This document shows positions 449 through 25,900 of a stretch of 43,164 nt of DNA, piece after piece. The translations under genes were made by a program, and so were the position numbers. The notes beneath the pieces were generated by a model. The model was not told the DNA's origin and did not search any database. It saw only the letters and a list, made by a program, of their open reading frames with translations. Each line of letters starts with the position of its first letter. The first letter of the stretch is position 1. The stretch is from a virus, in the IMG/VR virus record IMGVR_UViG_3300020421_000044, positions 1 to 43,164 of that record; one strand, written 5' to 3'.

Positions 449-476
449 CATCATCCCTATCTACGGTGACAGTTAA
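315..476 (+). CDS. Overlapping ORF, possible continuation of the gene at 134
   Basis: This frame reads from ATG 315 to TAA 474-476 and gives 53 residues ending NLEDAALWEQHINKTLHVRT...IPIYGDS, which has the composition of a genuine protein C terminus. It could be an independent small gene that starts inside the gene at 134. More likely it is the second half of that gene after a +1 frame change. The join would fall around 325-355, in an A/G-rich stretch. I cannot tell a programmed frameshift from a mutation or an assembly error. Confidence 0.4.
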   Translation: MKYAVVWMKNKKKGCTSRQQATFFNLEDAALWEQHINKTLHVRTDIIPIYGDS

Positions 477-481
477 GATAG

Positions 482-547
482 TGTCCACTAGGGTGTCCGC
501 ATGACCTCCGCACCCACTATACTATAGAGGTCATCAAGGGAACACCC
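482..547 (+). promoter_or_regulatory. Early-type promoter with upstream TGTCCA box and nested inverted repeats
   Basis: TATACT at 518-523 is the likely -10 for the gene at 549. A TGTCCA box starts at 482, exactly 36 bases upstream of the -10, the spacing shared with the promoters around 7.3-11.3 kb. No -35 is visible at 17-base spacing. A perfect 8-base inverted repeat, ATGACCTC (501-508) and GAGGTCAT (527-534), encloses the -10 in an 18-base loop. An outer pair, GGGTGT (491-496) and ACACCC (542-547), flanks it. Confidence 0.6.
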
Positions 548-1044: not shown

Positions 1045-1186
1045 TCTTAACAAATTTATTGAATCTATGGCATCCCTAGAGGAAAAAGCAGCAGAGTTAG
1101 AAGTAACTGTAGATCAACTTCTATCACAATTGAACAGGCGTGTGACACTACACAAACTGCCACACCAGAGGATGCACGGTCACTGA
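1037..1186 (+). CDS. Small coiled-coil hypothetical protein
   Basis: The chosen start, ATG 1037, gives 49 residues. An earlier in-frame start at 965 would lie wholly inside the preceding gene. Residues 5-35 (NKFIESMASLEEKAAELEVT and following) have leucines at heptad spacing and read as a coiled coil. The tail is basic and His-rich. The gene overlaps the upstream stop by eight bases. The box of the next promoter (1158) lies inside its 3' end. Function unknown. Confidence 0.55.
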   Translation: MTDLNKFIESMASLEEKAAELEVTVDQLLSQLNRRVTLHKLPHQRMHGH

Positions 1187-1199
1187 TCCTTGCTATAAT
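1158..1199 (+). promoter_or_regulatory. Boxed promoter (TGCCAC, 30-base gap, TATAAT)
   Basis: TGCCAC at 1158-1163 stands exactly 36 bases before TATAAT at 1194-1199. A small inverted repeat (AGGAT/ATCCT) lies between them, and the downstream leader contains CATACACAACA. No canonical -35 is visible. It drives the gene at 1226 and overlaps the end of the upstream gene. Confidence 0.65.
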
Positions 1200-6489: not shown

Positions 6490-6906
6490 CACATATGTAC
6501 CACTCTCCGCACATTGGTGTAACAGGGTTTTCCACAGTTTTGACACAGGTTGTGGAAAACTTTTGTAATCATTAAAAAAATATAGGTAAGGTGCGGTCAC
6601 GAAGCTGTCTTAGGCTGCATCCTACCGAAAGTCAAGTACGGTTGTGCCAGTTGTTTTAGTGTCACAACAAACCTCAGAAACACTTGCAAAATACTCAGAG
6701 ATCCTTTATAATAACAGCATGGTTCTCCAAAAGACTCGGAAACACACTTTGTGACCTTTTGAGTTTTTTGGGAATCGCACTTTTCCACACCCTGTGGAAA
6801 ACTCAAAAAGTTAAAAAGTTTAATTTTTAAGTTTCTTATAAAAGTAAGAAAGTTAAAAAACTCATTTTTTAAGATTTTGAGGTTTTTTGAAAAATTTAAT
6901 TTTAAG
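6490..6906. other. Candidate replication origin with four cyanobacterial-type DnaA boxes
   Basis: This 417-base stretch has no convincing gene on either strand. It holds four exact copies of TTTTCCACA (as written at 6528-6536 and 6781-6789; inverted as TGTGGAAAA at 6551-6559 and 6793-6801), arranged as two facing pairs. TTTTCCACA is the DnaA-box form reported for cyanobacteria. Downstream, 6800-6906 is almost all A/T with repeated AAAGTT/TTTAA tracts, suitable as an unwinding region. A 11-base inverted repeat (TTTTGAGTTTT and AAAACTCAAAA) brackets the second box pair. Origin function is inferred from this layout. Confidence 0.55.
6684..6712 (+). promoter_or_regulatory. Sigma70-type promoter inside the origin-like region
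   Basis: TTGCAA (6684-6689), 17 bases, and TATAAT (6707-6712) make a good promoter reading toward the A/T-rich segment and the gene at 6907. Transcription through the A/T region could help open it or prime replication, as at T4 transcription-dependent origins. That role is inferred. Confidence 0.5.
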
Positions 6907-7143
6907 ATGTTTGTGAAAACGTACGAAAACCTTGATAGTTCAGCCATTAATAGGTTGAAAATTGATAAAGATGTAGTATTTGTTACATATCAGAGTAATA
7001 TTGACAAAGAATACGAATTTAACTGTGAAAACACAGTAGAATTCGATGAAAAAGTGTCAAATACTCTTAAGAACAAAGAATCTATTGGTAAACTACTTAA
7101 TACTAGTATTAAAGAAGGCAAACTCGTTGATATCACTAAATAA
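6907..7143 (+). CDS. KTSC-like small domain protein (tentative)
   Basis: The start is placed at ATG 6907. A TTG 30 bases upstream would add residues encoded by the A/T tract and is less likely. The 78-residue product has the pattern NLDSSAINRLKIDKDVVFVT, then YQSNIDKEYEF, and later ESIGKLLNTSIKEGKL. This resembles the small KTSC-type domain common in phages and plasmids, whose function is poorly known. It is the first gene after the origin-like region and is probably read from the promoter at 6684. Confidence 0.5.
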   Translation: MFVKTYENLDSSAINRLKIDKDVVFVTYQSNIDKEYEFNCENTVEFDEKVSNTLKNKESIGKLLNTSIKEGKLVDITK

Positions 7144-7176
7144 TTGCACTGTTTGAGGTAAATTACCGCAAAATCA

Positions 7177-7332
7177 ATGTCCAAACGTTATAAGAACGAA
7201 GGCAACAACAAGTACAATCAAATTAATGACGACTTTGAAGATTATGGTTACAACGTAAAGAATATTAGGAGATCACATAAGAAGAAGGTAGCAAAATTCA
7301 AACGAGAAGACAACTACTATGAGGACAGTTAA
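7177..7332 (+). CDS. Small basic hypothetical protein
   Basis: ATG 7177 to TAA 7330-7332 encodes 51 residues (MSKRYKNEGNNKYNQINDDF...) with a strongly basic middle (RRSHKKKVAKFKRE). The charge suggests nucleic-acid contact but there is no known motif. There is no box or -10 directly upstream, so it is probably cotranscribed with the gene at 6907. Confidence 0.5.
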   Translation: MSKRYKNEGNNKYNQINDDFEDYGYNVKNIRRSHKKKVAKFKREDNYYEDS

Positions 7333-7337
7333 ATAAG

Positions 7338-7393
7338 TGGCATAGCTATTGCCCCATTCCATCCTGTATGCTCTATATTAAGAGTGTACAGGA
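7338..7393 (+). promoter_or_regulatory. Boxed promoter with -10 inside an inverted repeat
   Basis: TGGCAT at 7338-7343 is 36 bases upstream of TATATT at 7374-7379, and no -35 is visible. TCCTGTA (7362-7368) and TACAGGA (7387-7393) are perfect inverted copies with an 18-base loop enclosing the -10. A small GGCA/TGCC pair lies just after the box. It serves the gene at 7401. Confidence 0.6.
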
Positions 7394-7400
7394 TTTTATT

Positions 7401-7676
7401 ATGCAAAACTTCAATGAATTCATCAACTACGTCTATGCATTTTATGGTGACGGCGGGATCTATGATCAAAAGCGCACTAAGGAACAAATTGCATTTGCCC
7501 TTTGTTCTTATCTTGACGATATCGATGCCCGTGATGATGACTATTACAGTTGGGGATATGGTGACAGTCTAGACCGTGAACGGGTGAGAGATGTTATGAA
7601 TGACATCTATGGTCCTGTGCCAGTTGTTGCCACTGAATCACATTTTAATGACTGCGGGGTGAAAATCCTCAACTAG
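7401..7676 (+). CDS. Acidic hypothetical protein
   Basis: The start is ATG 7401, because the earlier in-frame ATG at 7368 lies upstream of the probable transcription start. The 91-residue product is acidic and aromatic (MQNFNEFINYVYAFYGDGGI, DDIDARDDDYYSWGYGD). It is a single-gene cassette between two boxed promoters. No signal peptide or known motif is seen. Confidence 0.6.
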   Translation: MQNFNEFINYVYAFYGDGGIYDQKRTKEQIAFALCSYLDDIDARDDDYYSWGYGDSLDRERVRDVMNDIYGPVPVVATESHFNDCGVKILN

Positions 7677-7693
7677 CTGACCAGTTGGATTAG

Positions 7694-7736
7694 TGGCACA
7701 GTGGGTATACCAATTGGCACCCGCTGTGTCTATAAT
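7694..7736 (+). promoter_or_regulatory. Boxed promoter with 10-base-pair stem
   Basis: TGGCAC at 7694-7699 is 37 bases before TATAAT at 7731-7736. CACAGTGGGT (7697-7706) pairs with ACCCGCTGTG (7719-7728) as a 10-base-pair stem with one wobble. The right arm ends two bases before the -10. The leader AAGAACATACACAACACA follows. It drives the gene at 7766. Confidence 0.7.
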
Positions 7737-7765
7737 AAGAACATACACAACACAGAAACGATTTT

Positions 7766-7951
7766 ATGTACACAGTTCAATGCCCTGCTCTCGGTGAAGA
7801 GGAAATGACAAACGACCTCGACCGCGCAACCGATGTTTGCTACAGCATGGCAGAAGAGTCTGGATCATGGGCGGGTGTCCGTGATCTTATGGGAGATGTG
7901 ATCATTGAGTATGGTGACATTATGCAGGCAGTTGCCAACGGTGACCTGTAA
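7766..7951 (+). CDS. Small acidic hypothetical protein
   Basis: This 61-residue protein (MYTVQCPALGEEEMTNDLDR...) is acidic, with a helical second half (AGVRDLMGDVIIEYGDIMQA). The ATG follows the CA-rich leader without a Shine-Dalgarno. It is a single-gene cassette. Not recognised. Confidence 0.6.
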   Translation: MYTVQCPALGEEEMTNDLDRATDVCYSMAEESGSWAGVRDLMGDVIIEYGDIMQAVANGDL

Positions 7952-7964
7952 CCAGTTCACAAAC

Positions 7965-8006
7965 TGTCACCCATCCTGTTGAAAGGGTGGGCGGCTGCTC
8001 TATAAT
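7965..8006 (+). promoter_or_regulatory. Boxed promoter for the Api92-like gene
   Basis: TGTCAC at 7965-7970 is 36 bases before TATAAT at 8001-8006. CACCC (7968-7972) and GGGTG (7985-7989) can pair across a 12-base loop. The sequence after the -10 departs from the CA-rich leader seen elsewhere and runs into a structured leader. Confidence 0.65.
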
Positions 8007-8012
8007 ATAAAT

Positions 8013-8113
8013 GTGGGTCAGGTTAGATTCCTGATTAAACAGACGTGGGTCTAAAGATTCGTGAACTGCTTCTAATTTGGTGAAGAGAAAGCACGAAATT
8101 ACCACACGCCCAC
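8013..8113 (+). ncRNA. Structured 5' leader, possible cis-regulatory RNA
   Basis: The 100-base leader between the promoter and the gene at 8136 can fold as a three-way junction. The closing stem is GTGGG (8013-8017) with CCCAC (8109-8113). A second stem is TTAGA (8023-8027) with TCTAA (8050-8054). A third is TTCGTG (8058-8063) with CACGAA (8092-8097), topped by CTTC/GAAG. TCAGG/CCTGA (8018-8022, 8030-8034) is a competing hairpin that would allow switching. The Shine-Dalgarno lies just after the closing stem. No known riboswitch class was recognised. Confidence 0.4.
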
Positions 8114-8135
8114 TTATTCACACACAGGAGAACTT

Positions 8136-8588
8136 ATGCCAAATTGGTGTCACAATCGTGTTTCATTCTATTCAGAAAACGAAGAGCAAATAGAAAAGCT
8201 CTATAAGTTATTTGATGGTGAAAATGTATTTCAAAAGATCAAACCAGCTCCAGACTGGAAGAACACACCAAACGAAGCAGGTCAGCTGCCTGTTAAAAAA
8301 GAACATAAGAACCCAGATGGTAAGGTAGTCTGGACATCATATGATTTTCCTGATGGAAAGAATGATGACAGATGGTATTCATGGAATGTTGACAACTGGG
8401 GAACTAAATGGGATGTTGACCCATCATGTGACCATTTCGACGGCAATAGCTTTGAATGCGAATTTGAGACGGCATGGGCTCCAGCAGAGGGAATCTTCTA
8501 TGAGATAAGAGAGAAATTTCCTGATGTTGACATGACGTGGTTTTATGATGAACCAGGAATGATGGTTGCAGGATACCTAGGACAGTAG
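8136..8588 (+). CDS. Api92-like ferredoxin-fold protein
   Basis: This 150-residue protein opens with MPNWCHNRVSFYSENEEQIE, the MPNWCxNxVxF signature of the Api92/YubB-like family, whose domain has a ferredoxin-like fold. Family members are common on phages and plasmids and their function is not established. Later features are WYSWNVDNWGTKWD and a C-terminal FETAWAPAEG...WFYDEPG stretch also typical of the family. It has the clearest Shine-Dalgarno of the cassettes (AGGAG at 8126-8130, five bases before ATG) and a long structured leader, so its control differs from that of its neighbours. Confidence 0.75.
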   Translation: MPNWCHNRVSFYSENEEQIEKLYKLFDGENVFQKIKPAPDWKNTPNEAGQLPVKKEHKNPDGKVVWTSYDFPDGKNDDRWYSWNVDNWGTKWDVDPSCDHFDGNSFECEFETAWAPAEGIFYEIREKFPDVDMTWFYDEPGMMVAGYLGQ

Positions 8589-8594
8589 AGAAAC

Positions 8595-8636
8595 TGTCAC
8601 ATAGTGGGTTGCATGTGTGACCCACTAGATTATAAT
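8595..8636 (+). promoter_or_regulatory. Boxed promoter with perfect 8-base inverted repeat
   Basis: TGTCAC at 8595-8600 is 36 bases before TATAAT at 8631-8636. TAGTGGGT (8602-8609) and ACCCACTA (8620-8627) are perfect inverted copies with a 10-base loop that ends three bases before the -10. The leader AAGAATGTACACAACACA follows. It drives the gene at 8664. Confidence 0.7.
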
Positions 8637-8663
8637 AAGAATGTACACAACACATTCACTATT

Positions 8664-8840
8664 ATGTTTTTTAAGCACGTTCAACTTCACGAGTACGATT
8701 TAACAGACAAGGGCATCTCTCAAGCATGTTACGATGAAATGAAGCGTGACGGTTACATTCTACCAGAGGATGAGTTGAGAGTGCTTGCTGATTACAAGCG
8801 TGAACAGTTTAAAGACTATATGCGTCCACTGTTCGCGTAG
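8664..8840 (+). CDS. Small charged hypothetical protein
   Basis: The start is ATG 8664. The in-frame ATG at 8604 lies upstream of the -10 and cannot be used from this promoter. The 58-residue product (MFFKHVQLHEYDLTDKGISQ...) is helical and charged, ending FKDYMRPLFA. It is a single-gene cassette. Not recognised. Confidence 0.55.
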   Translation: MFFKHVQLHEYDLTDKGISQACYDEMKRDGYILPEDELRVLADYKREQFKDYMRPLFA

Positions 8841-8858
8841 CTGTGACAGTTTATAAAG

Positions 8859-8900
8859 TGGCACCCTATCGCTTCACAAGGGTGCTGCCTGCACTATAAT
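8859..8900 (+). promoter_or_regulatory. Boxed promoter with GGCACCCT/AGGGTGCT stem
   Basis: TGGCAC at 8859-8864 is 36 bases before TATAAT at 8895-8900. The box itself forms part of the left arm GGCACCCT, which pairs with AGGGTGCT near 8879-8886. The leader AAACACATACACAACACA follows. It drives the pair of genes at 8928 and 9098. Confidence 0.7.
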
Positions 8901-8927
8901 AAACACATACACAACACACACGGTATT

Positions 8928-9107
8928 ATGTCAACACTACATCATGAAAACTTACTTGAGACATGCTGGGATGAAGCATGGGAGAACTTCAGAGTAAGTA
9001 ACAAGTTAACCGAAGATGAATTGAACTGGTTAACTAACAACACTCTAGGCACATTGGACGCAATAGAGAAACAAGCACAAAGACTATTCGAGGGTCTATG
9101 TCAGTAG
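8928..9107 (+). CDS. Small acidic hypothetical protein
   Basis: ATG 8928 to TAG 9105-9107 encodes 59 residues (MSTLHHENLLETCWDEAWEN...), acidic and helical with several Trp. It follows the CA-rich leader without a Shine-Dalgarno and overlaps the next gene by 10 bases. No family is recognised. Confidence 0.55.
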   Translation: MSTLHHENLLETCWDEAWENFRVSNKLTEDELNWLTNNTLGTLDAIEKQAQRLFEGLCQ

Positions 9108-9331
9108 AAAAGTATTGGAACATATGCTCTTTTCTTAATGATGAAGAGGTGCATAAGGTCTGGGACATTATAGACAATGCTCTAGACCGTAAGGGGTGGG
9201 TAGGCACTGCTGATGATGCAGAATTGTCAATCCGTTTGTATGATCCTAATCTCAAACAAAACATTGACGCATCAACAGAGTATGACCCCGAACCATTTGA
9301 ACAGGATAACCCCTTCTTTCACGTCACCTAG
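9098..9331 (+). CDS. Acidic hypothetical protein
   Basis: This 77-residue, acidic protein (MSVEKYWNICSFLNDEEVHK...) overlaps the upstream gene by 10 bases and is probably coupled to it. A helical N-terminal half is followed by an Asp/Glu/Pro-rich tail (EYDPEPFEQDNPFFHV). Function unknown. Confidence 0.55.
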   Translation: MSVEKYWNICSFLNDEEVHKVWDIIDNALDRKGWVGTADDAELSIRLYDPNLKQNIDASTEYDPEPFEQDNPFFHVT

Positions 9332-9349
9332 CTGTGACACTTGACAAAC

Positions 9350-9391
9350 TGGCACGGGGTGGGTTGTATTGTCCCCCCGTTGCCCTATAAT
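9350..9391 (+). promoter_or_regulatory. Boxed promoter with GC-rich stem
   Basis: TGGCAC at 9350-9355 is 36 bases before TATAAT at 9386-9391. GGCACGGGG after the box pairs with CCCCGTTGCC next to the -10, with one bulge. A TTGACA at 9341 is too far upstream to serve as its -35. The leader AAACACATACACAACAAAGG follows. Confidence 0.65.
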
Positions 9392-9419
9392 AAACACATA
9401 CACAACAAAGGTCACACAC

Positions 9420-9731
9420 ATGCGCCAAATCGAAAGACAAATGAACTCAGCGATCAGAAACAAGACTGATTTCTGCAAGTCAAACACCATGGTAAGACAT
9501 GAGGACGGTTACGCCTTCGTTTATCTTCACGGGAACCACATTGGCACTGTTGCCGATGATGGGGCGTTGACCTTGTTTGATGGTGGGTGGAGATCCAACA
9601 CCACCAAATCACGCCTTAACGCTTTATGTGATGAGTTCGCCAGAGGTTGCGGCGTCTTCCAGAAAAACTGGGAGTGGTTCGTTTCAACTCGTGGAGGCAC
9701 CCAAGATTTCGACAGCGGGGTGACCGTATGA
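9420..9731 (+). CDS. Conserved-looking phage hypothetical protein
   Basis: The start is ATG 9420 after the CA-rich leader. The in-frame ATG at 9369 is upstream of the -10. The 103-residue product begins MRQIERQMNSAIRNKTDFCK. It has a beta-rich centre (VYLHGNHIGTVADDGALTLF, DGGWRSNTTKSRLNAL) and ends with VFQKNWEWFVSTRGG. The GGW-x-TNTTKSRLNA pattern looks familiar from many small phage proteins, but I know of no established function. It is coupled by ATGA to the gene at 9728. Confidence 0.6.
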   Translation: MRQIERQMNSAIRNKTDFCKSNTMVRHEDGYAFVYLHGNHIGTVADDGALTLFDGGWRSNTTKSRLNALCDEFARGCGVFQKNWEWFVSTRGGTQDFDSGVTV

Positions 9732-9874
9732 ATGAAAAGCAATTAATCAGACTTCGTGAGCAACTGCAAGAGGATCTGATCTGTTGGCGGGAGGGCAATG
9801 ACCTCCCAGACCATCAAGATGAGGTACTATGCGACATTGTACTAAATGCGTTCATCGATGCAGCAGGCGTGTAG
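9728..9874 (+). CDS. Small hypothetical protein
   Basis: ATGA coupling with the upstream gene sets the start at 9728. The product has 48 residues (MNEKQLIRLREQLQEDLICW...), a charged helix followed by an acidic segment. No motif is recognised. Confidence 0.5.
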   Translation: MNEKQLIRLREQLQEDLICWREGNDLPDHQDEVLCDIVLNAFIDAAGV

Positions 9875-9888
9875 ACCAGTTCACGTAG

Positions 9889-9930
9889 TGGCACACAAGC
9901 TCTGGCAACAGGCACGGGTGCCCCTATAAT
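9889..9930 (+). promoter_or_regulatory. Boxed promoter
   Basis: TGGCAC at 9889-9894 is 36 bases before TATAAT at 9925-9930. GGCAC in the box can pair with GTGCC at 9918-9922, or GGCAC at 9911-9915 can make a tight hairpin with the same GTGCC. The leader contains ACACACACAACACACC. It drives the genes at 9956 and 10258. Confidence 0.65.
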
Positions 9931-9955
9931 AAGAGAGTAACACACACAACACACC

Positions 9956-10261
9956 ATGAAAAGAATTGAAATCGCAATGGGTCGCAACATTCCAAACAGC
10001 GGCACAGTGACTGACCATATGATGAACGAATTCATCAAGTCAGATATCATGCCTCTGTTTGAATATGGAACGTTCATTGATGGCGAGGGGTTTTGGAAAG
10101 GTGAGTTTGAGAAGACTAAAATTTTCTACATTGAACTAGAAGACAGAGAGGTCCTTGACGCTATGCCTAAGTTTGAGGCAATCGCTGCAGCATACAAGCG
10201 AGCATTCAGACAGGAAGCAGTGATGATCTCAACCGTTGAAACTCACTATGCATTCACATGA
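9956..10261 (+). CDS. Hypothetical protein
   Basis: This is a 101-residue protein (MKRIEIAMGRNIPNSGTVTD...) with an alternating helix/strand pattern; IFYIELEDREVLDAMPKFEA may be a strand-helix unit. It is coupled by ATGA to the HicA-like gene that follows, so the two are made together. I looked for a HicB-like antitoxin signature because of that neighbour and did not find a convincing one. Function unknown. Confidence 0.6.
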   Translation: MKRIEIAMGRNIPNSGTVTDHMMNEFIKSDIMPLFEYGTFIDGEGFWKGEFEKTKIFYIELEDREVLDAMPKFEAIAAAYKRAFRQEAVMISTVETHYAFT

Positions 10262-10425
10262 CGACCAAACAACTCAGAAAACTTGCTAAGAAATACGGGT
10301 GGATCTTCACCCGTAGCGGCGGCAATCATTTAATATATCGCCGCGGCTCTGATCAATTGACCATCCCACTTGCCACCCGTGGATTTGTGGGGCACCAAAT
10401 CAAAAAGCAAATCACAAGAGCATGA
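10258..10425 (+). CDS. HicA-like small protein (possible mRNA interferase)
   Basis: ATG 10258 to TGA 10423-10425 encodes 55 residues. The pattern TTKQLRKLAKKYGWIFTRSG, then GNHLIYRRGSDQLTIPLATR, matches the HicA dsRBD-like fold: helix, GW, RSGGNH with the catalytic-type His, two strands with a TIP, then a C-terminal helix. HicA toxins cut mRNA and are paired with HicB. Here the upstream coupled gene (9956) is not HicB-like, and downstream comes a promoter. An orphan use in phage takeover or a novel partner is possible. The fold call is moderately secure; activity is inferred. Confidence 0.6.
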   Translation: MTTKQLRKLAKKYGWIFTRSGGNHLIYRRGSDQLTIPLATRGFVGHQIKKQITRA

Positions 10426-10482
10426 GCCACTATAACATGCCATACCTACCCGCTGCGGGTGAGTATAGACCAGATAGAGATC

Positions 10483-10525
10483 TGGCACAAGCTATGCAGG
10501 CAGTGCGCCTCTTTGCCTCTATAAT
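10483..10525 (+). promoter_or_regulatory. Boxed promoter
   Basis: TGGCAC at 10483-10488 is 37 bases before TATAAT at 10520-10525. GGCAC pairs with GTGCGCC near 10502-10508 with one bulge. A separate tight hairpin, ACCCG (10448-10452) with CGGGT (10456-10460), lies upstream just after the preceding stop. The leader is AGAACAACACACAGAAACG. Confidence 0.6.
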
Positions 10526-10549
10526 TAGAACAACACACAGAAACGAACA

Positions 10550-10771
10550 ATGCAAACCACTTGGGCAGTCCAACCAGCAGAATGGTTCAACTTTGACGAG
10601 AACGGCTGCGTATACTGCGCCGACATCGAAACAGCTTACAAGATCGCAGCGCAGCAGAAAGGCGACCAAATGATTTTCAGAATCAACAACAACACGACCC
10701 CTATTAAGTGGGTGCGAGTATACGAGGGAGAAGCTGCTGTGACAGTGCAGGAACTGTCCCACCTCAAGTAG
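10550..10771 (+). CDS. Hypothetical protein
   Basis: This 73-residue protein starts at the first ATG after the leader (MQTTWAVQPAEWFNFDENGC...). It has Trp-rich strand-like segments and a central helix (YCADIETAYKIAAQQKGDQM). A longer frame starting at 10422 covers the promoter and this gene in another frame and is not supported. The box of the next promoter lies in its 3' end. Not recognised. Confidence 0.6.
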   Translation: MQTTWAVQPAEWFNFDENGCVYCADIETAYKIAAQQKGDQMIFRINNNTTPIKWVRVYEGEAAVTVQELSHLK

Positions 10772-10796
10772 ACTTCGACCTGTCATCCCCTATAAT
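10755..10796 (+). promoter_or_regulatory. Boxed promoter giving a near-leaderless transcript
   Basis: TGTCCC at 10755-10760, inside the end of the upstream gene, is 36 bases before TATAAT at 10791-10796. GACAGT (10741-10746) and ACTGTC (10753-10758) form an inverted repeat around the box. The next ATG (10803) is only six bases after the -10, so the transcript should begin at or very near the start codon. Confidence 0.55.
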
Positions 10797-10802
10797 AAGG
10801 AC

Positions 10803-10973
10803 ATGAACAAAACAACCCCTCTCAAAGCATACTACAACGGCGCAGTCCTCATGAATGAGACAGCAGCAAAAGACCCCGTTGTCAGAGCAGCACTTGACGC
10901 AATGGCAAAGCGTAATTTCCAAACCCTTGAAGTTCCCACTGGTGGCACTTGGTACATAAGTGACAGGCACTAA
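10803..10973 (+). CDS. Small hypothetical protein, probably from a leaderless mRNA
   Basis: ATG 10803 to TAA 10971-10973 encodes 56 residues (MNKTTPLKAYYNGAVLMNET...), ending LEVPTGGTWYISDRH. The closeness of the -10 leaves no room for a ribosome binding site. An in-frame ATG at 10851 is a possible alternative start but would remove the strand-like first third. Function unknown. Confidence 0.5.
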   Translation: MNKTTPLKAYYNGAVLMNETAAKDPVVRAALDAMAKRNFQTLEVPTGGTWYISDRH

Positions 10974-10975
10974 AG

Positions 10976-11017
10976 TGGCACAGCATGACCCCACCCGTCA
11001 TGCTCACCCCTTATAAT
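10976..11017 (+). promoter_or_regulatory. Boxed promoter with perfect 8-base inverted repeat
   Basis: TGGCAC at 10976-10981 is 36 bases before TATAAT at 11012-11017. AGCATGAC (10982-10989) and GTCATGCT (10997-11004) are perfect inverted copies with a 7-base loop. The leader AAGAACATACACAACACA is the textbook version of this class. It drives the gene at 11042. Confidence 0.75.
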
Positions 11018-11041
11018 AAGAACATACACAACACACAGCAC

Positions 11042-11287
11042 ATGACCACAGCAACAGACACCACATACAACGGATGGGCAAACTATGAGACATGGAATGC
11101 CGCCTTGTGGATAGGCAATGACGAGACCATCTACCGTCACGCTCGCATCAACCGCAACCTAGGATACAGAGCATGGGCGAAGCGATTCATTGATGAGTTC
11201 GGTGAGTACATCACAGGCGACGGCGTGGCATGGTTGCACGACGACATCGACACAGACGAGATGGACGAGATGCTGGCAGAGCTCTAG
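11042..11287 (+). CDS. Conserved-looking phage protein of the NGWxNYETWNxALWI type
   Basis: The start is ATG 11042, after the leader; the frame is open from 10985, upstream of the -10. The 81-residue product contains YNGWANYETWNAALWIGNDE near the N terminus. I associate this signature with a small family common in cyanophages and other phages, of unknown function. The rest is helical and acidic (DDIDTDEMDEMLAEL). It is the last of the early-type cassettes, followed by the terminator region. Confidence 0.65.
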   Translation: MTTATDTTYNGWANYETWNAALWIGNDETIYRHARINRNLGYRAWAKRFIDEFGEYITGDGVAWLHDDIDTDEMDEMLAEL

Positions 11288-11302
11288 GGCACACGCCCCT
11301 AG
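11284..11302 (+). terminator. Stem-loop at the end of the last early-type gene
   Basis: CTAGGGC (11284-11290, containing the TAG stop) pairs with GCCCCTAG (11295-11302), with one extra C, around an ACAC loop. There is no T-run, so it may protect the mRNA end or attenuate transcription rather than terminate by itself. The stretch 11303-11350 shows nothing recognisable. Confidence 0.35.
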
Positions 11303-16904: not shown

Positions 16905-19900
16905 ATGCCTGCTGTAAAGACTAAGAGAATTTCCACTCTAATTGAGACGCAGCTTCCAGCTTTTATTACTGATGAATACGAACTCTTTAGTAAGTTCATT
17001 CAAAAGTATTACGAAGCACAGGAGGTACAAGGTGGCACACTGGATGTAATTAATAACCTCCAGAAATACGCAGATATTAATTATTATGAAAAAAATCTCC
17101 TTAGACAATTTGATACTCTGGTCACTAGTATCAGTAGTTCTGACGATACAATTGTATTGGAAGATGCGACGAGTTTTCCAAAAAGAAACGGATACGTAAA
17201 AATTGATGACGAGATCATCTTCTACGCCTCTAGAACAGACACAGAGCTAAGAGAGTGCTCTAGGGGTGTCAGTGGCAATACATCGCTTGGTGACTTATAT
17301 GAGTCTACTAGTTTTACAACAACGGTTGCTGCTGCTCATGCTGCTGGACAGAAGGTTCATAATGTAAGTAACCTCTTCCTATATGCATTAGTTAAAAACT
17401 TTGAAAGTCAGTATCTAGGTTCTTTCCCTGAAAAGTATCTTAGGGGTGAAGTAGATAAGAGAACTCTGATCAAGAATATTCAGAAGTTTTACAAAGCTAA
17501 GGGAACTACAAGTTCCATCAAGTTTATTTTCAATACTGTTGTCGCCAGAGAGATTGACAACAAACCAGAGGTATACAAACCAAGAGATTTTACATATAAA
17601 TCTTCTGAAGCAGATTGGATTAACGTTTATGCACTTAAGTGTAAGGTTATATCTGGAGATGTAAAAAATCTAGTAGGAAAGAAGATTGTACAAACAGCTA
17701 CTGACGAATATGGGTATGCTGATACTACAGTAGATAATGTATATGCTGATGGTACATCAGATGGTGAGGTAATTTATAATATTGTACTAGCACCTGAAAC
17801 AGTTAATGGTACATTTGGAGTATCTACTAAAACTAAGCTTGAAAAAACCCTGTCAGGGACTGCATCTTCAGGGGATAGAATTAATGTGTTCTCTACTGTT
17901 GGATGGGGCAAGACAGGATCAGTATTAATTGGTGATGAGACGATTACTTTTGATAGTAAGAATGTAACACAGTTTATCATTGATGAAAGGGCGGCACAGA
18001 CTGCTGTTCAACATGTGGCAGGAACTTCAGTATACAAACCAGTAACCGTTAGTGGTTCTGGTGTTGTTTTACTGGTCATGGGTGTTGTATACAACCTACA
18101 ACCATCTGATGCACAACCATATTCTGCTATTGGGGACAAGATTCAAATCTCAAATCCAGGATTTGAAACTTCCGATTCCAAGATTGTTCAGACTGGTACT
18201 AATCAAACCAGATGGGTGTTAAGTTCAGGTGCTGCAGTCGATGTGCCTACACTTCCATCAGTTGCATCTTCATTAGATCAAGTTTCCACTAATGTGTCCG
18301 CTATCTTTGCAGATGAACAATACTATTATATCACAAGTTCTAGCTATCCATCGCATAAAATTTTAGATGGATCAACTGTCAACTACACAACACTTGATCA
18401 GAAACTGCTTCGTATCATTAGAAAGCAAGCAACTAGAACTACAGAAACATATCCAACACCTAGAAGAGATGTTGGTATTGCACTAAATGGTGTTCCTCTT
18501 TATGGATACAAAGATCCAGAAAGCATTAGGTTTGGTAAATTAGAAGAAATTAAGATCGACACTAGAGGAACTGGATATGCAACACCTCCTTTTGTTCTTG
18601 TAGATCAAGTTCCAAACAAAGCTAGAGCAGTTCTTGCTGGTCAGGTTGTAGAACGTATCATTGTTGATACTAATGATGTGTTCCCAAGAACCCCTGATAT
18701 CACTATCACCTCTGGGCGTAACGCATCTGTTAGTGCTATTGTTACTGGTGGAAAAGTAACCAGTCTTGTTATCGATAATGCAGGTGAGTTTTATTCTTCT
18801 GCTCCTTTAATCAGGATTAGAGATAATGCTGGTCGTGGTAGATTTGCAGAGTATCAGTCTATCGTTAATACTGATGGACAGATTACAGGATTTAATAAAA
18901 TTGCAGAAGGTAACTTCTATAATCAAGATACTGTTGCTGTTGATGTTATTCCAGTTGGTAATAGTGCAACTGGTATCCCACTTCTTAAAGAGTGGAACTA
19001 CAATAGATTTAAAAAATTAGAAAATGATTTAGATACTGAATACGGTTATATCTTTGCAAACTATAATAACGTATTAGAATATGGTTATGGATATGCTGCT
19101 AACCCTAAAGCTTTACGTGTTGCTCTAAGCGATAATATTAATAATGCAGGAACTGAACCTGCTGTAAAAACTCATTCTCCTATTATTGGATTTGCTTATG
19201 ATGGCAATCCGATCTATGGTCCTTTTGGTCACGAAAATCCCCTAGATTCAACCTCATCAATTGTGAGGATGACCTCTAGCTATTCCATCAATGGAAATCG
19301 TTCTGATGGTCCTTCGCTAACAACTTATCCTCTGGGTACGTTTGTTAATGATTACACATACACTCATAAGAGTGGCACACTAGATCAAAACAATGGAAGA
19401 TTTTGTATTACCCCAGACTTTCCGCAAGGAACTTATGCTTATTTCATTACTATTGATAGCAATCAAGTACCGCAATATCCATACCTTCTAGGAGAGAACT
19501 TCTATTCTCTACCAGTAGATAGTAATTACAATTCTAATATTAATCAAGATGATATTCCAAAGAATTCTAGAAGATTCTATCAAGCAGGTATGCAGAGAAA
19601 TGGCGAAGGTGTCATTGCTCAAATTGCAGAAGTAAAGCAAGGAAATGTAGAACAAGTCTCAGTAGTAGACTCATCTACTAATTTTAGTATTAACTCACAA
19701 GTATACTTTGATAATAAAGGAACAGAGGGTTCCGAAGTAGAAGCTATTGTAAACTCCGTTAAAGGTAAGAACGTTTCCTACTTAGAATGTAAAGAAGATA
19801 GAGTCGTAAAATTAACCACAATCCAAAGTGCATATCTATTTGCTGATGATACATTAAACCAACCCTCCTCTGGTGCGTCTGGTTCTATTGTAGGTACAGT

Positions 19901-22900
19901 AAAGAATGATAATACAATTGTACTAAGAAATGTCAATGGTACATTTGATGAAACAGGAACATTCTCTGCAACTATCAAAACATTTACCATTCTTCTAGAC
20001 CAAAGAAGTTCTTACACCAAAGGTGCTACATTAAGTTTGACTGATGGTGTCAATGCACCTATAGCTAAGGGTGAAGTATTAGAAGGAACTAACAGTCAGA
20101 ACGTAGTAGAGATTAAGGTTACCGAAGGAACTTGGGTTGTCAATGATGATTACTTCCTTCAGTCTGATGATCTATTCAATACATCTGGAACTAAGGTTGT
20201 AAGACTTACTTCTCTTAGTGATGGATTGAATCCATTTGAAGTTAATCAGAGTGTTGCACTTGTGGAAACTGATTCTCCACATGGGTTAGGAATTGGTGAC
20301 CAAGTTACAATTGATATCAATCCTGATGATACAACCAAAACTAAGACCTATTATATTAGGAAGAGGTTGTATCAAGAAGCTATTCTTGTACCACCTAGTA
20401 ATAAATCAACAATTGATTTTACAGGAATTGGTCGATATGAAATACTCAATGGTGGAGCAGACTATACTGCTGGCATTTACACTAGTGTTGCTCTTACTGG
20501 TGGATCGGGCACTGGTGCCACTGCTACATTCACTGTATCTGACGCTGGGATAGTATCTGGTATTCAGATTCAAGATGCTGGCAGTGGATATGCAAGAGGA
20601 GATTACCTTGGTGTAGCTGATGAAGATTTAGTAAGATCTGGTGCCTCTGTATCTACTGCAAGATTCCAAATTTATGTTGGACATGTTGGTGTGCCTGCTG
20701 GTGGTACAAAAGTTACAGTTAAGAGTTCATTTGGATTCTCTGATAATGACTTAATTAAAATTGGCGAGGAAGTTTTAAAGATTGAAAGTATTGCTGGCAA
20801 TGATCTCATTGTTGCTAGAGGACAAGAGGGAACTGATGATGTAGATCATTTTGATGGACAAGAAGTAGTATTATATAAACCACAATATAATTTTGCTACC
20901 AATTATCAAATCTTTGATGGTAATAATTCTGGTTATATTCAATCTTATGATCCTGTAACTCATAAAATCAATATTGTATATGATTATGGTACTCTTAAGT
21001 CAACAGCTAATGAAGTTGTATTGAGTTCTAGTTTCTTTGATAGTAGTAATCCTCAAAGACTAGTATCTGTCAAGTCTGCTGCAGACATTGTTTATAAATT
21101 CGAGTTTTCAGAAGACAATAATACATTTGTACCGAATCCTAATATAGATTTACAAGAATTTTACAAGTACAAGTTTGATACGTCTCATTCTAGTCTTACT
21201 GGGACTTATTTTGATATTAGTCCAAGTAATAACTATAATTTAATTACTGTAGAGAAAAACGAAACAACTATTCTTCCTGGCAACGCTGGTGCATTTACTG
21301 ATGTCAAGTTTGGTTTTGGATACAGAGATGCATCTAATAACTATCAAACAAAAGTAGGAACTGATTTTACTAACTTCTATTATTTTGACAAAAAGAATGT
21401 AGTTGATTCAGAAAATGCATTCTTTAAGATTATCACAGATCCTTTACAGGGAACTAAGACTCTCAATTATGTTACACCGAATCGTTTTGTTTATGACGTT
21501 ACCAGTTCTCCTTTGTGGGATGGTTCTGGATCCATTTCTTATACTACTACTGGTCAGTTCGCTATCGGTAAGATTAATACCACGCAAATTGTAAACTTAG
21601 GACTCAACTACAAAAAAGTTCCTGTTATTGTTGGTGTTGATCCAACTGCTAGTTATAGGGCAGAAGCTACAGTCAATTTTGATGTTGCAACACAAACTAT
21701 CACTGGTGTAGATATTACTGAGAAAGGTTCTAACTATGTGAATCCAAAAGTATACATTATCAATGGTGATGGTTCTGATGCCAAGTTCAATGTTCTAGCT
21801 AGAAATGGTGAGATTGCTTCTATTACTGTAGATAAACCTGGTAAAGGATATACATTCGCACCTGAGATTATTATCATTGAAGGTGATGTGGAAGCATATG
21901 CAGAGAGTACATCTATTGGTGTTCCTAAGAGTGTTAACCTTACTACAAATGGTGGTGCTTTCCATCTAGACAAAACTGTATCTTCCACTTTCAGTTCAAA
22001 CTATATTGTTGCTGTTAAGAACGTTAATGGCAATTTTAGTATTGGTGAAACTGTAATTCAAAAAATTAATAACGTAGAAGTATTCAGAGCAACTGTAACC
22101 GAGTGGAGGTTTGGATCTAATTTACTCAAGCTTGCAAATGTACAAGGTATTATTCGTGAGAACATTTCTATTGAGTCTTTGAGATTCCCTGTAGATGCAA
22201 TTGTTAGCAAAGTATTTGTTTCTACTTTCCAAGAAAATATTTCTAGTTTCTATGACAACTTAGGATACTATACATCTGACAGAGGTAAGTTAGGTGTATC
22301 CAATCAGAAGATCACAGATAGTTTCTTCTATCAAGACTATTCATATGTTGTCAAGTCTAAGACATCTATTGAACAGTGGCGTGATCTTATTAAATCTACC
22401 ACACACCCTGCAGGATTTAAGTTATTTGGACAGGTTGATGTAGAAGCTACTGCAAGTTCTGAGATGCCAGTTGAGATGCCAAAGGCATCACACTTTAGTG
22501 TTATTCAATTATGGGATCCAACAAAGAATAAAATTACTGTTGAGAACTCAAGTAGAATTGTTACTCAAAGTGTACAGAAGGTAGAGAATACAAGAATTAA
22601 TAAGGCATTTGGTACTGCTGCTCCTAGTGAGTTCTTGTTCAATGAAGTTCGTACGTTTGAACTATCTCTTGCAGCACCGTTTGATGGATACTATGACACA
22701 GATGGAAGACTACAAGGAACTACACAATTCCAAGTATTAGTTGATGGTACACCGTTTACTTTGTCATCAACATATGGCACTGTTATTACTTTGGATGGTG
22801 TGATTCAAGAACCAGGTGTTGCATATACAATCTCTGGTGATCAAATTACATTCTCTGCTCCACCTTTAGGAGATGGAGTTAAATTTGGTTCTGATTATAA

Positions 22901-25900
22901 AGGTGTTACTTTCTATGGTAAGGTATTCCAATTTAAGGATGCACAATATAATACAAAATACCTCAAGAAATTAAGAAACATTTACCAACGTGGTGGTACA
23001 TGGATTGATGCTGCAAATCAAATTGAAAGAAATGCAGATTTCATTATCAATGAAACTATTGGATATGGTAAAGCAACTTATGGCACTTTAGATTGGGCGA
23101 CTAAACAGGATGACTATGAAAGAAACATCAGAGCTATTTTAGATGCATATCAACATGATTTAAGATTTGGTGGAAATGTAAAAACAATTGACTATTCCGC
23201 TATCTTCAATGCTAGTGATGAATATCTTTATATTCAAAATAATAAAACTAAGTCTGTTGCTATTTTTGAATATGCAACTAGATTAGCAAAACTTGCTATT
23301 AGAAATTGGGATTGGATTGATGTTAACATCAATTACTTCCAAGGTAGCAATACAATGACTGTTAGCAGCACTAAGAATCTTGCTGTTGGTTTATTTGTAA
23401 GTTCTGGTAGAGCATTCCCTGTAGGAACAAAGATTGTATCTATTGATAGTGATACTCAGATCACGTTAAGCAATGCAGCACTAGCTAACTCTGGTGGTGG
23501 CGGTGGTGCTCCTAGTGGAACCACTTTACTAAGTGGCACAGCATCTACTGGATCTATTCCTACAAGCACTGGTGCTGTTGCTCCTGGCAACACTTATACT
23601 GTGCCACCTGGCGTAACTGTCACAACACCTATATCTTTTTCTGGTACTACACAAGCAGCATTCTCTTGGAGTGGTTTGAACAAAGGTATGTTCTATAAGG
23701 CAGGACAACTAATTGCGTTAAACAGAGCATATATTATTTCCGAATCATTGTCATGGGCACAAACAACATATCCATCACTCAATTGGGGATCTCTTTCTAC
23801 TAAGTGTGGTAGAGACATTGGTCTCATGTTAGATGCTTATGTTTATTCACTTAAGTTTGGTGGTAATGAAAAGATTGTAGAGGCAGCACAACTTTACTAT
23901 CAAAAGAAAGATTATCCTTATGGAGAAGAACTATATTATATCACTGGTCAATTAGATGAAACTGTAGCTACATTTGAATATGCTAGAGATCTATCAATTC
24001 AAGCAATGAGAAATCAATTGCCTGGTACAGATCCTGATGCATTGGTTGACTCTATTTCTCCTGTATGTGCAGAAGTAGAAAGTACATTAAACACATATCA
24101 TGATATTGTCAGGACTATTCTAACCGAAGGTAGAGGTTTAGTTGAAAAGACAAAACAGAATCCTAATAAGTCTGGTAATTGGACACAAGATTTAAGTTAC
24201 TCTAATTACAATATTCTTGGTGATCCTCTTCTACCTGTAGAAGAATGCACTATTGTAATTTCTGCAATGGATTCTCTGTTTGATAATTTAGAGGATGTAA
24301 TTAGAGAAGAGGATGTAACAAGATCACTTCCAGATTATATTGACGGTGAAAATAAAGACTTTGAATTATATTGGGATGATAATACACCTGTTAACACAGA
24401 AGAAGATGAAGATTTATTCCTCACAATTAACGCTGTATTACAAAGACCCAAGTTTACAGAAAATTATCCATTACAAGATTCTTATTGGATTGATAGAACT
24501 GTTATTCCCAATAAAATTAAATTTGACGTAGCTCCTATATGGGATCAAGATTTAGGTGCTAAGACTATTGGCGAACCAACTGCTGTAGAAAAAGTTGTAG
24601 GTATTGGTGTAGGAAACTACAAGAGACTTACTATCGACTTTGATTTAGTTGATGGTGTTAGAAACGGTCCTTTCTTAATTCTTGATGTAGAAGACAATAC
24701 TGTACAAAATATTGAATCTGAAGACAGCATGTATGTTTTCTTAGATGGTATTTTACAGGTAAAAGGAAAAGCATATACTGTATCAGGTCCTAATATTACA
24801 TTTAATAATCCTATTAAGAAAGAGCATAATGTTGATATTAGATATCTCTATGGTAGAGATGTTGGTCAGGTTCTAAACATCTATGATTATGCACCTGACA
24901 CATATTTTGCACAAGGAACATTCTCCTTTACAACTTCCACTCCTATCATGGATGGTTTAGTTGGTTATACTTGGATGGGATCCGCTCGTGGATTACCTAT
25001 TCATTGCTGGCAACAAAGAGCTAATGGAACATATAATCTCATTGGTGAACTGAAGAATGCAGTTAGAAGTGGTAACAATGTCTCTTTTGAACTTAAGTGT
25101 CACAACCCAGTAATAGAAAGTGGTTTGGACTTTACTTTTACTATCAAAGGATATTATGATAGAACATATGTTATTGCTGATGGAGATATTAGTAATCAAA
25201 CACTAACCTTCAAGAAAGACGGATCAAATAGAAAACTACTTAGAGATGATAATGGATTATGGTCTGGAACCATTCTTGGTAAAACTTATAAGGCACCATT
25301 TGTTTATCTCTCTAACAATGACAAAATTAGAGTAGATGGTGAAGAAGGTTTTAGAAGAATCAAGAGACTGCCTACAGAAGCTACCAGTAAAGATGGTAGA
25401 GATGGAGAACAAACTTCTGATGATATCTTTGGCACAGTCTCAATTGAGACTTATACTGGAATCACTAGAGGTGAGGGTCTATCTGTAGTCGCTATTATTG
25501 AGAATGGATCTGTTACTGAGTTAACATGGAACCAACGTAGTTATGATCCTATCACACAACCTACTGCATATCAGTATTATACACCACCTGTTCTTAAGTT
25601 TGAATCCTTAGATGGTAATGGTGGTGGTGCAAGAGCTAACGTTCTTGTAAGTAAGGGTCAAGTAATCAGTGTTGATTTAATTGATGGTGGTTCTGGGTAT
25701 ACCACTGCTCCTAAGGTTATTACAACCAGAAGGTTTGATATTCTTAAGGAAAGAGACATTGGTGTCTCACTAATCAATATTGGTATTAATCCATATGTAG
25801 AAACTTCTGGTTTAACTGCAATCTCATTTATTTCTGAGATTGATGAAGCTGGTCTTACTTCTGTTACTGGTATTAGTTCTTTACCTCTACAAATGTCAAG

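Follow-up and report, generated by a model that had tools for sequence, protein, structure and literature searches.

Probable promoter elements in the small-gene region

We analyzed a 43,164-base IMG/VR virus record (the whole stretch of DNA is referred to here as the window) for a repeated promoter-like element, in which a TGKCAC box is followed at an almost fixed distance by a TATAAT -10 hexamer. Two T4-type baseplate proteins, gp6 and gp8, are encoded in the window along with a PAAR protein, and the predicted gp6 shares 80.8% identity with that of S-WAM2 (a Synechococcus phage), 80.1% with that of S-B43 and 78.9% with that of S-RSM4. These baseplate genes and gp6 identities mark the window as a fragment from a T4-like cyanophage (Kyanoviridae). 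The promoter cluster is located in a run of small genes directly before gp25 and gp6. This region is variable among relatives, and gene order differs from one to another.

The elements, each of which includes a dyad described below, are as follows:

466-523 (+): dyad 466-487 (GTGACAgttaagatagTGTCCA), -10 TATACT 518-523, ATG 549
1142-1199 (+): dyad 1142-1163, -10 1194-1199, ATG 1226 (DUF7717 protein)
6644-6712 (+), variant: dyad 6644-6665, -35 TTGCAA 6684, -10 6707-6712, right arm to -10 distance 47; no open reading frame (ORF) found immediately downstream
7322-7379 (+): degenerate dyad 7322-7343, -10 TATATT 7374-7379, ATG 7401
7678-7736 (+): dyad 7678-7699 (left arm weak), stem-loop in the spacer, -10 7731-7736, ATG 7766
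7949-8006 (+): dyad 7949-7970, -35 TTGAAA 7979 (16-bp gap), -10 8001-8006, ATG 8136
8579-8636 (+): dyad 8579-8600, strong stem-loop in the spacer (minimum free energy -16.2, z -6.8), -10 8631-8636, ATG 8664
8843-8900 (+): perfect dyad 8843-8864, -35 TTCACA 8873 (16-bp gap), -10 8895-8900, ATG 8928
9334-9391 (+): perfect dyad 9334-9355, -10 9386-9391, ATG 9420 (Kyano_Gp96 gene)
9873-9930 (+): dyad 9873-9894 (left arm weak), -10 9925-9930, ATG 9956 (DUF3574)
10467-10525 (+): right arm TGGCAC 10483-10488, left arm poor, -10 10520-10525, ATG 10550
10739-10796 (+): dyad 10739-10760, -35-like TAGACT 10769 (16-bp gap), -10 10791-10796
10960-11017 (+): dyad 10960-10981, stem-loop in the spacer (z -6.3), -10 11012-11017, ATG 11042

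Spacing of the box and the -10

Distances were measured from the start of the right-arm box to the start of the -10. The first-pass annotation had listed twelve box and -10 pairs, and reading the coordinates directly gave the same values, with ten sites at 36 and two (7694 and 10483) at 37. Both hexamers are exact at 8 of the 12 sites. One or two bases differ at each of the remaining four (TGTCCA with TATACT at 482, TGCCAC at 1158, TGGCAT with TATATT at 7338 and TGTCCC at 10755). Exact pairs in the whole window number six at distance 36, two at 37 and one each at 16, 47 and 69; the minus strand of the window has none. In a shuffled-sequence scan, a check that had been proposed in the first-pass annotation, 2000 dinucleotide-preserving shuffles of window positions 7000-11300 gave a best count for two adjacent distances of 1, compared with 8 observed. 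The explanation that the box is a chance match or reflects the bias of the reader has nothing in its favor beyond the initial measurement by hand, and can be considered already refuted by the shuffles and by the wrong-spacing control, the reversed-pattern control and nine negative phages reported below.

The box is one arm of a 24-bp dyad

The box is real. As originally described it is incomplete, however, as it is only the right arm of a 24-bp dyad. A mirrored left arm occurs ten bases upstream of the box (e.g., GTGACA-N10-TGGCAC at 8843-8864 and 9334-9355), and is weak at 7678, 9873 and 10467. When up to three mismatches are allowed, the dyad pattern has 23 strand matches in the window, compared to a mean of 0.53 in shuffled sequence. 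The consensus from 285 distinct IMG/VR elements is T-GTGMCA-S-TT-N4-AA-S-TGKCAC-A. If the -10 is taken as -12 to -7, the dyad spans -65 to -42 and has its center at about -53.5. The arms and the TATAAT were preset by the search of IMG/VR, and the outer T/A and inner TT/AA were left free. Positions that were not preset are conserved (the outer T in 80% and the outer A in 94% of elements, plus the inner TT and AA), and because the search left them free, this conservation constitutes independent evidence.

The analysis shows the dyad to be a site in the DNA that is coupled to the -10. When dyads were collected with no condition on the -10 from the window plus seven complete genomes of cyanophages, 29 had an exact TATAAT at distance 36 and eight at 37, with at most two at any other distance. 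Full dyads in IMG/VR show spacings of 36 (58 cases) and 37 (28 cases), but this set is biased, as the loci were fetched with that spacing. The wrong-spacing control in IMG/VR is less biased than such counts: the right spacing recovered at least 120 stretches per pattern, whereas a spacing eight bases shorter recovered 11 contigs in total. A few dyads are at 47, one helical turn beyond 36 (the 6684 promoter of the window, and some in P-TIM40 and IMG/VR).

At the inner S positions, which are base seven of each arm, 175 of the 285 elements have G-G or C-C and 67 have complementary bases. This bias runs against pairing (Fisher p 3e-10); within the arms, A is also commonly found opposite G. Because opposite arm bases anti-covary rather than pair, we rejected an RNA or cruciform hairpin and interpret the dyad as a probable protein site. 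The pattern fits a putative protein site with two halves that favor slightly different letters. Among the same elements, as scored at positions 7 and 16, the combination of one GTGMCAG half and one GTGMCAC half is commoner than two equal halves.

Core promoter

A sigma-70 promoter would be expected to have TATAAT with a -35 at a gap of 16-18 bp; in the elements the -10 is strong, and the -35 is weak but enriched only at a 16-bp gap. The class had been characterized as having no -35. It is correct that the -35 is usually weak or absent, but the statement goes too far, given the enrichment of a weak -35 with a 16-bp gap. Hexamers similar to TTGACA (at least 4 of 6 matches) occur at this gap in 19% of elements, and at other gaps in about 6% or less. 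In the window, TTGAAA-16-TATAAT (7979) and TTCACA-16-TATAAT (8873) have 11 of 12 matches for the -35 and -10 combined, and the sequences at 9902 and 10769 have 10 of 12. A TG preceding the -10 is mildly enriched. The related claim that promoters with a proper -35 lack the box does not hold, as the 6684 promoter has a dyad (6644-6665) with its right arm 47 bases before the -10.

Stem-loops in the spacer

Stems of at least 6 bp are present in 21% of the spacers, compared with 2% of shuffles, and most elements have no strong stem. In the window, the stems of the 8595 and 10976 promoters are both strong. Some of the stems are complete terminators placed between the dyad and the -10, for example AGGGGGTTGCACACCCCCTTTTT in ACG-2014h. 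Separately, a 14-pair stem-loop with a T-rich tail (7361-7394) extends across the -10 of the 7338 promoter, so that a terminator-like hairpin and a promoter overlap.

Similar arrangements occur in the promoter-early stem-loop (PeSL) cassettes of T4-like phages, reportedly the subject of work by Arbiol in 2010 and Comeau in 2014. To our knowledge, a dyad at -65 to -42 is not part of PeSLs. The elements that carry a stem resemble PeSLs as small cassettes, repeated between small accessory genes, in which a sigma-70 promoter is coupled to a stem-loop or terminator. Unlike PeSLs, only about one fifth of the elements have a clear stem, and RB49, a PeSL phage, lacks the dyad. PeSLs are discussed in PMC4503421.

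Alternatively, the dyad and spacer stem could serve the upstream gene as a terminator or as a signal for RNA processing, carried on a PeSL-type recombination cassette, with the -10 incidental. The enrichment of stems, the classic terminators among them and the small size and variability of the genes among relatives are all in line with this. However, the majority of elements lack a strong stem, covariation of the kind expected from base pairing is missing from the dyad arms, and few parts are as well conserved as the TATAAT and its spacing. We therefore consider this explanation very improbable, and the spacer terminator is better read as nested within a promoter.

Distribution in phages and hosts

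The dyad site tracks T4-like phages of picocyanobacteria, a conclusion based on its phage distribution and the lack of enrichment in hosts. The scan of related phages suggested in the first-pass annotation identified the dyad in 13 of 13 T4-like cyanophages of picocyanobacteria tested: Syn9, P-TIM40, S-PM2, P-SSM2, P-SSM4, P-HM2, S-RSM4, S-WAM2, ACG-2014h, S-CAM4, S-CAM1, S-CRM01 and S-B43. There are only two sites in S-B43 and 24 in the freshwater phage S-CRM01. In Syn9 and P-TIM40, dyads are followed by a -10 at 35-37 and then by an ATG. The dyad is absent from T4, RB49, Ma-LMM01, P-SSP7, KVP40, phiM12, DLP6 and PSS2, and HTVC008M, a member of the Kyanoviridae that infects SAR11, has a single weak match. 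Thus, the counts for these nine non-dyad phages are zero or at chance level. S-CRM01 also has many near-perfect palindromes among its dyads, and at the usual distance it has a -10 region of variant sequence, TATGCTAGCTAAGT.

In 151 host-family genomes the dyad is not enriched over a reversed control, and those sites that do recur are within a LysR-type coding sequence or at places without a -10. For these reasons we rejected a host regulon. Near-identical dyads like GTGCCACTAATYAAACTGTCAC were seen in four of the host-family genomes (G158, G142, G017 and G100; L336-L344), with up to several per genome. These are mostly intergenic, lack a -10, and in some cases are beside apparent methyltransferase genes.

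The factor that binds the site could be a cyanobacterial transcription factor, in which case the phage would have copied the site of a host regulator. This is a variant of the activator model proposed below rather than a departure from it. An early promoter requires a factor that is already present at injection, the element is found in phages of both marine and freshwater picocyanobacteria, and it is missing from the SAR11-infecting HTVC008M. On the other hand, the dyad shows no enrichment in the host-family genomes, the recurring host sites are in LysR coding sequence or lack a -10, and P-SSP7 (a podovirus) and PSS2 (a siphovirus), which infect the same host group, have none. A host factor is thus possible, but we think it unlikely. 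What speaks for a phage factor is that the site is lacking from the genomes of the hosts and from other phages that infect them.

Genes served by the elements

The first ATG is 27-35 bases past the -10 at 10 of the 12 window sites. Ahead of Kyano_Gp96, the element is retained before the orthologues in the window, P-TIM40 and Syn9. It is also retained before phrog_481 in four phages, phrog_459 ("peptidase") in three and cobS (phrog_249) in two. The other genes served, including those of the window, mostly encode small proteins of unknown function. The served genes are for the most part small accessory or host-takeover genes, probably expressed early. The DUF3574 protein (9956-10261) has a weak, sub-threshold match to the S-adenosylmethionine lyase family (E 0.006).

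Comparison with known systems

Doron et al., writing in the ISME Journal in 2016, reportedly described a novel regulatory element that controls the early genes of Syn9, with like results for P-TIM40; the element is said to be abundant and conserved among T4-like cyanophages. Both of these phages carry the dyad at the same distance, so the dyad promoter is likely, but not proven, to be the 2016 early-gene element. Text searches of the literature for the motif letters gave nothing useful. The first-pass annotation had anticipated a new system. In light of the element reported in 2016 the system is probably not new, and what was worked out here, within a probably known promoter class, is the dyad, its spacing, the -35, the nested terminators and the absence from hosts. 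The premise of that expectation stands, as T4-like cyanophages lack motA and asiA (PMC2984593, PMC5780444). Cyanomyoviruses also lack alt, and in 2010 it was unclear how their early and middle genes are controlled (PMC2984593). T4-like cyanophages are abundant in the ocean, and how their genes are switched on without the T4 early and middle factors has been an open question (PMC2984593).

The elements resemble activator-dependent bacterial promoters of the CRP type, in which a dyad lies upstream of the -35 region, in having a symmetric site, a fixed distance and a weak -35, and differ from them in the dyad center (about -53.5, rather than -41.5 or -61.5). The sequence GTGMCASTTN4AASTGKCAC is not known as a CRP or NtcA site. 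The elements also resemble the middle promoters of T4, which depend on a MotA box and AsiA, in having a -10 and, upstream, an activator box, with a -35 that is weak or missing. The MotA box, however, is single, lies at about -30 and replaces the -35, whereas the site here is a 24-bp dyad at -65 to -42. A middle promoter of the MotA type was ruled out by this position and by the absence of motA from cyanomyoviruses (PMC2984593).

Proposed mechanism

We consider it likely that the elements represent a family-wide class of T4-like cyanophage promoters that are activator-dependent and used by the host sigma-70 polymerase. Such a promoter would consist of a strong TATAAT -10, a -35 that is usually weak or absent (16-bp gap), a start region rich in AT and, at -65 to -42, the 24-bp dyad. 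Transcription would be started at these -10s by host RNA polymerase carrying sigma-70, and a putative dimeric protein would occupy the dyad and contact the alpha C-terminal domain or sigma region 4. This contact with the polymerase may compensate for the poor -35. The protein could be encoded by the phage, packaged in the virion or taken from the host. The fixed spacing, the symmetry of the dyad and the recurrence of the element before equivalent genes in distant relatives give good support to a promoter class with a site-specific factor, as first suggested from the spacing within the window.

From these observations we infer activation, polymerase contact and early timing. Several points weigh against this interpretation. 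Activation, as opposed to repression, is judged from the position of the site; early timing is taken from the type of gene and from the element reported by Doron et al. in 2016; the starts at the -10s are predicted from sequence; and the analysis turned up no protein that is known to bind the dyad. Repressors more often overlap the -35, the -10 or the start. The dyad might nonetheless be the operator of a phage or host repressor that silences these promoters later in infection, since a symmetric site suits a repressor equally well and the evidence comes from sequence. Yet the location of the dyad upstream of the core (-65 to -42), the constrained distance of 36 or 37 and the weak -35 form the layout of an activator, and we give repression only a small probability.

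The first-pass annotation noted that the identity of the factor was not visible, and the factor was not found in this analysis either. Phyletic subtraction, requiring presence in 8 dyad phages and absence from HTVC008M and T4, leaves psbA, psbD, apparent MazG, ThyX and Hli proteins and a few small unknowns. No DNA-binding domain was recognizable by eye in these candidates, on which no family search was made. It is also conceivable, and in our estimation rather unlikely, that the dyad serves as operator for a dimeric activator not yet described and specific to T4-like cyanophages, phage-encoded and possibly injected with the DNA, that replaces the Alt/MotA/AsiA logic of T4; the 2016 element would then be different or would have been described without the dyad. 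The activator-dependent promoter class proposed above offers a precise 24-bp site at fixed spacing, which allows a simple pull-down search for the binding protein and provides a marker for these promoters in metagenomes.

Adjoining gp6 is an ORF of 3435 residues (16905-27212) with a YHYH domain in its first part. It occupies the position of VrlC-like structural genes in relatives.

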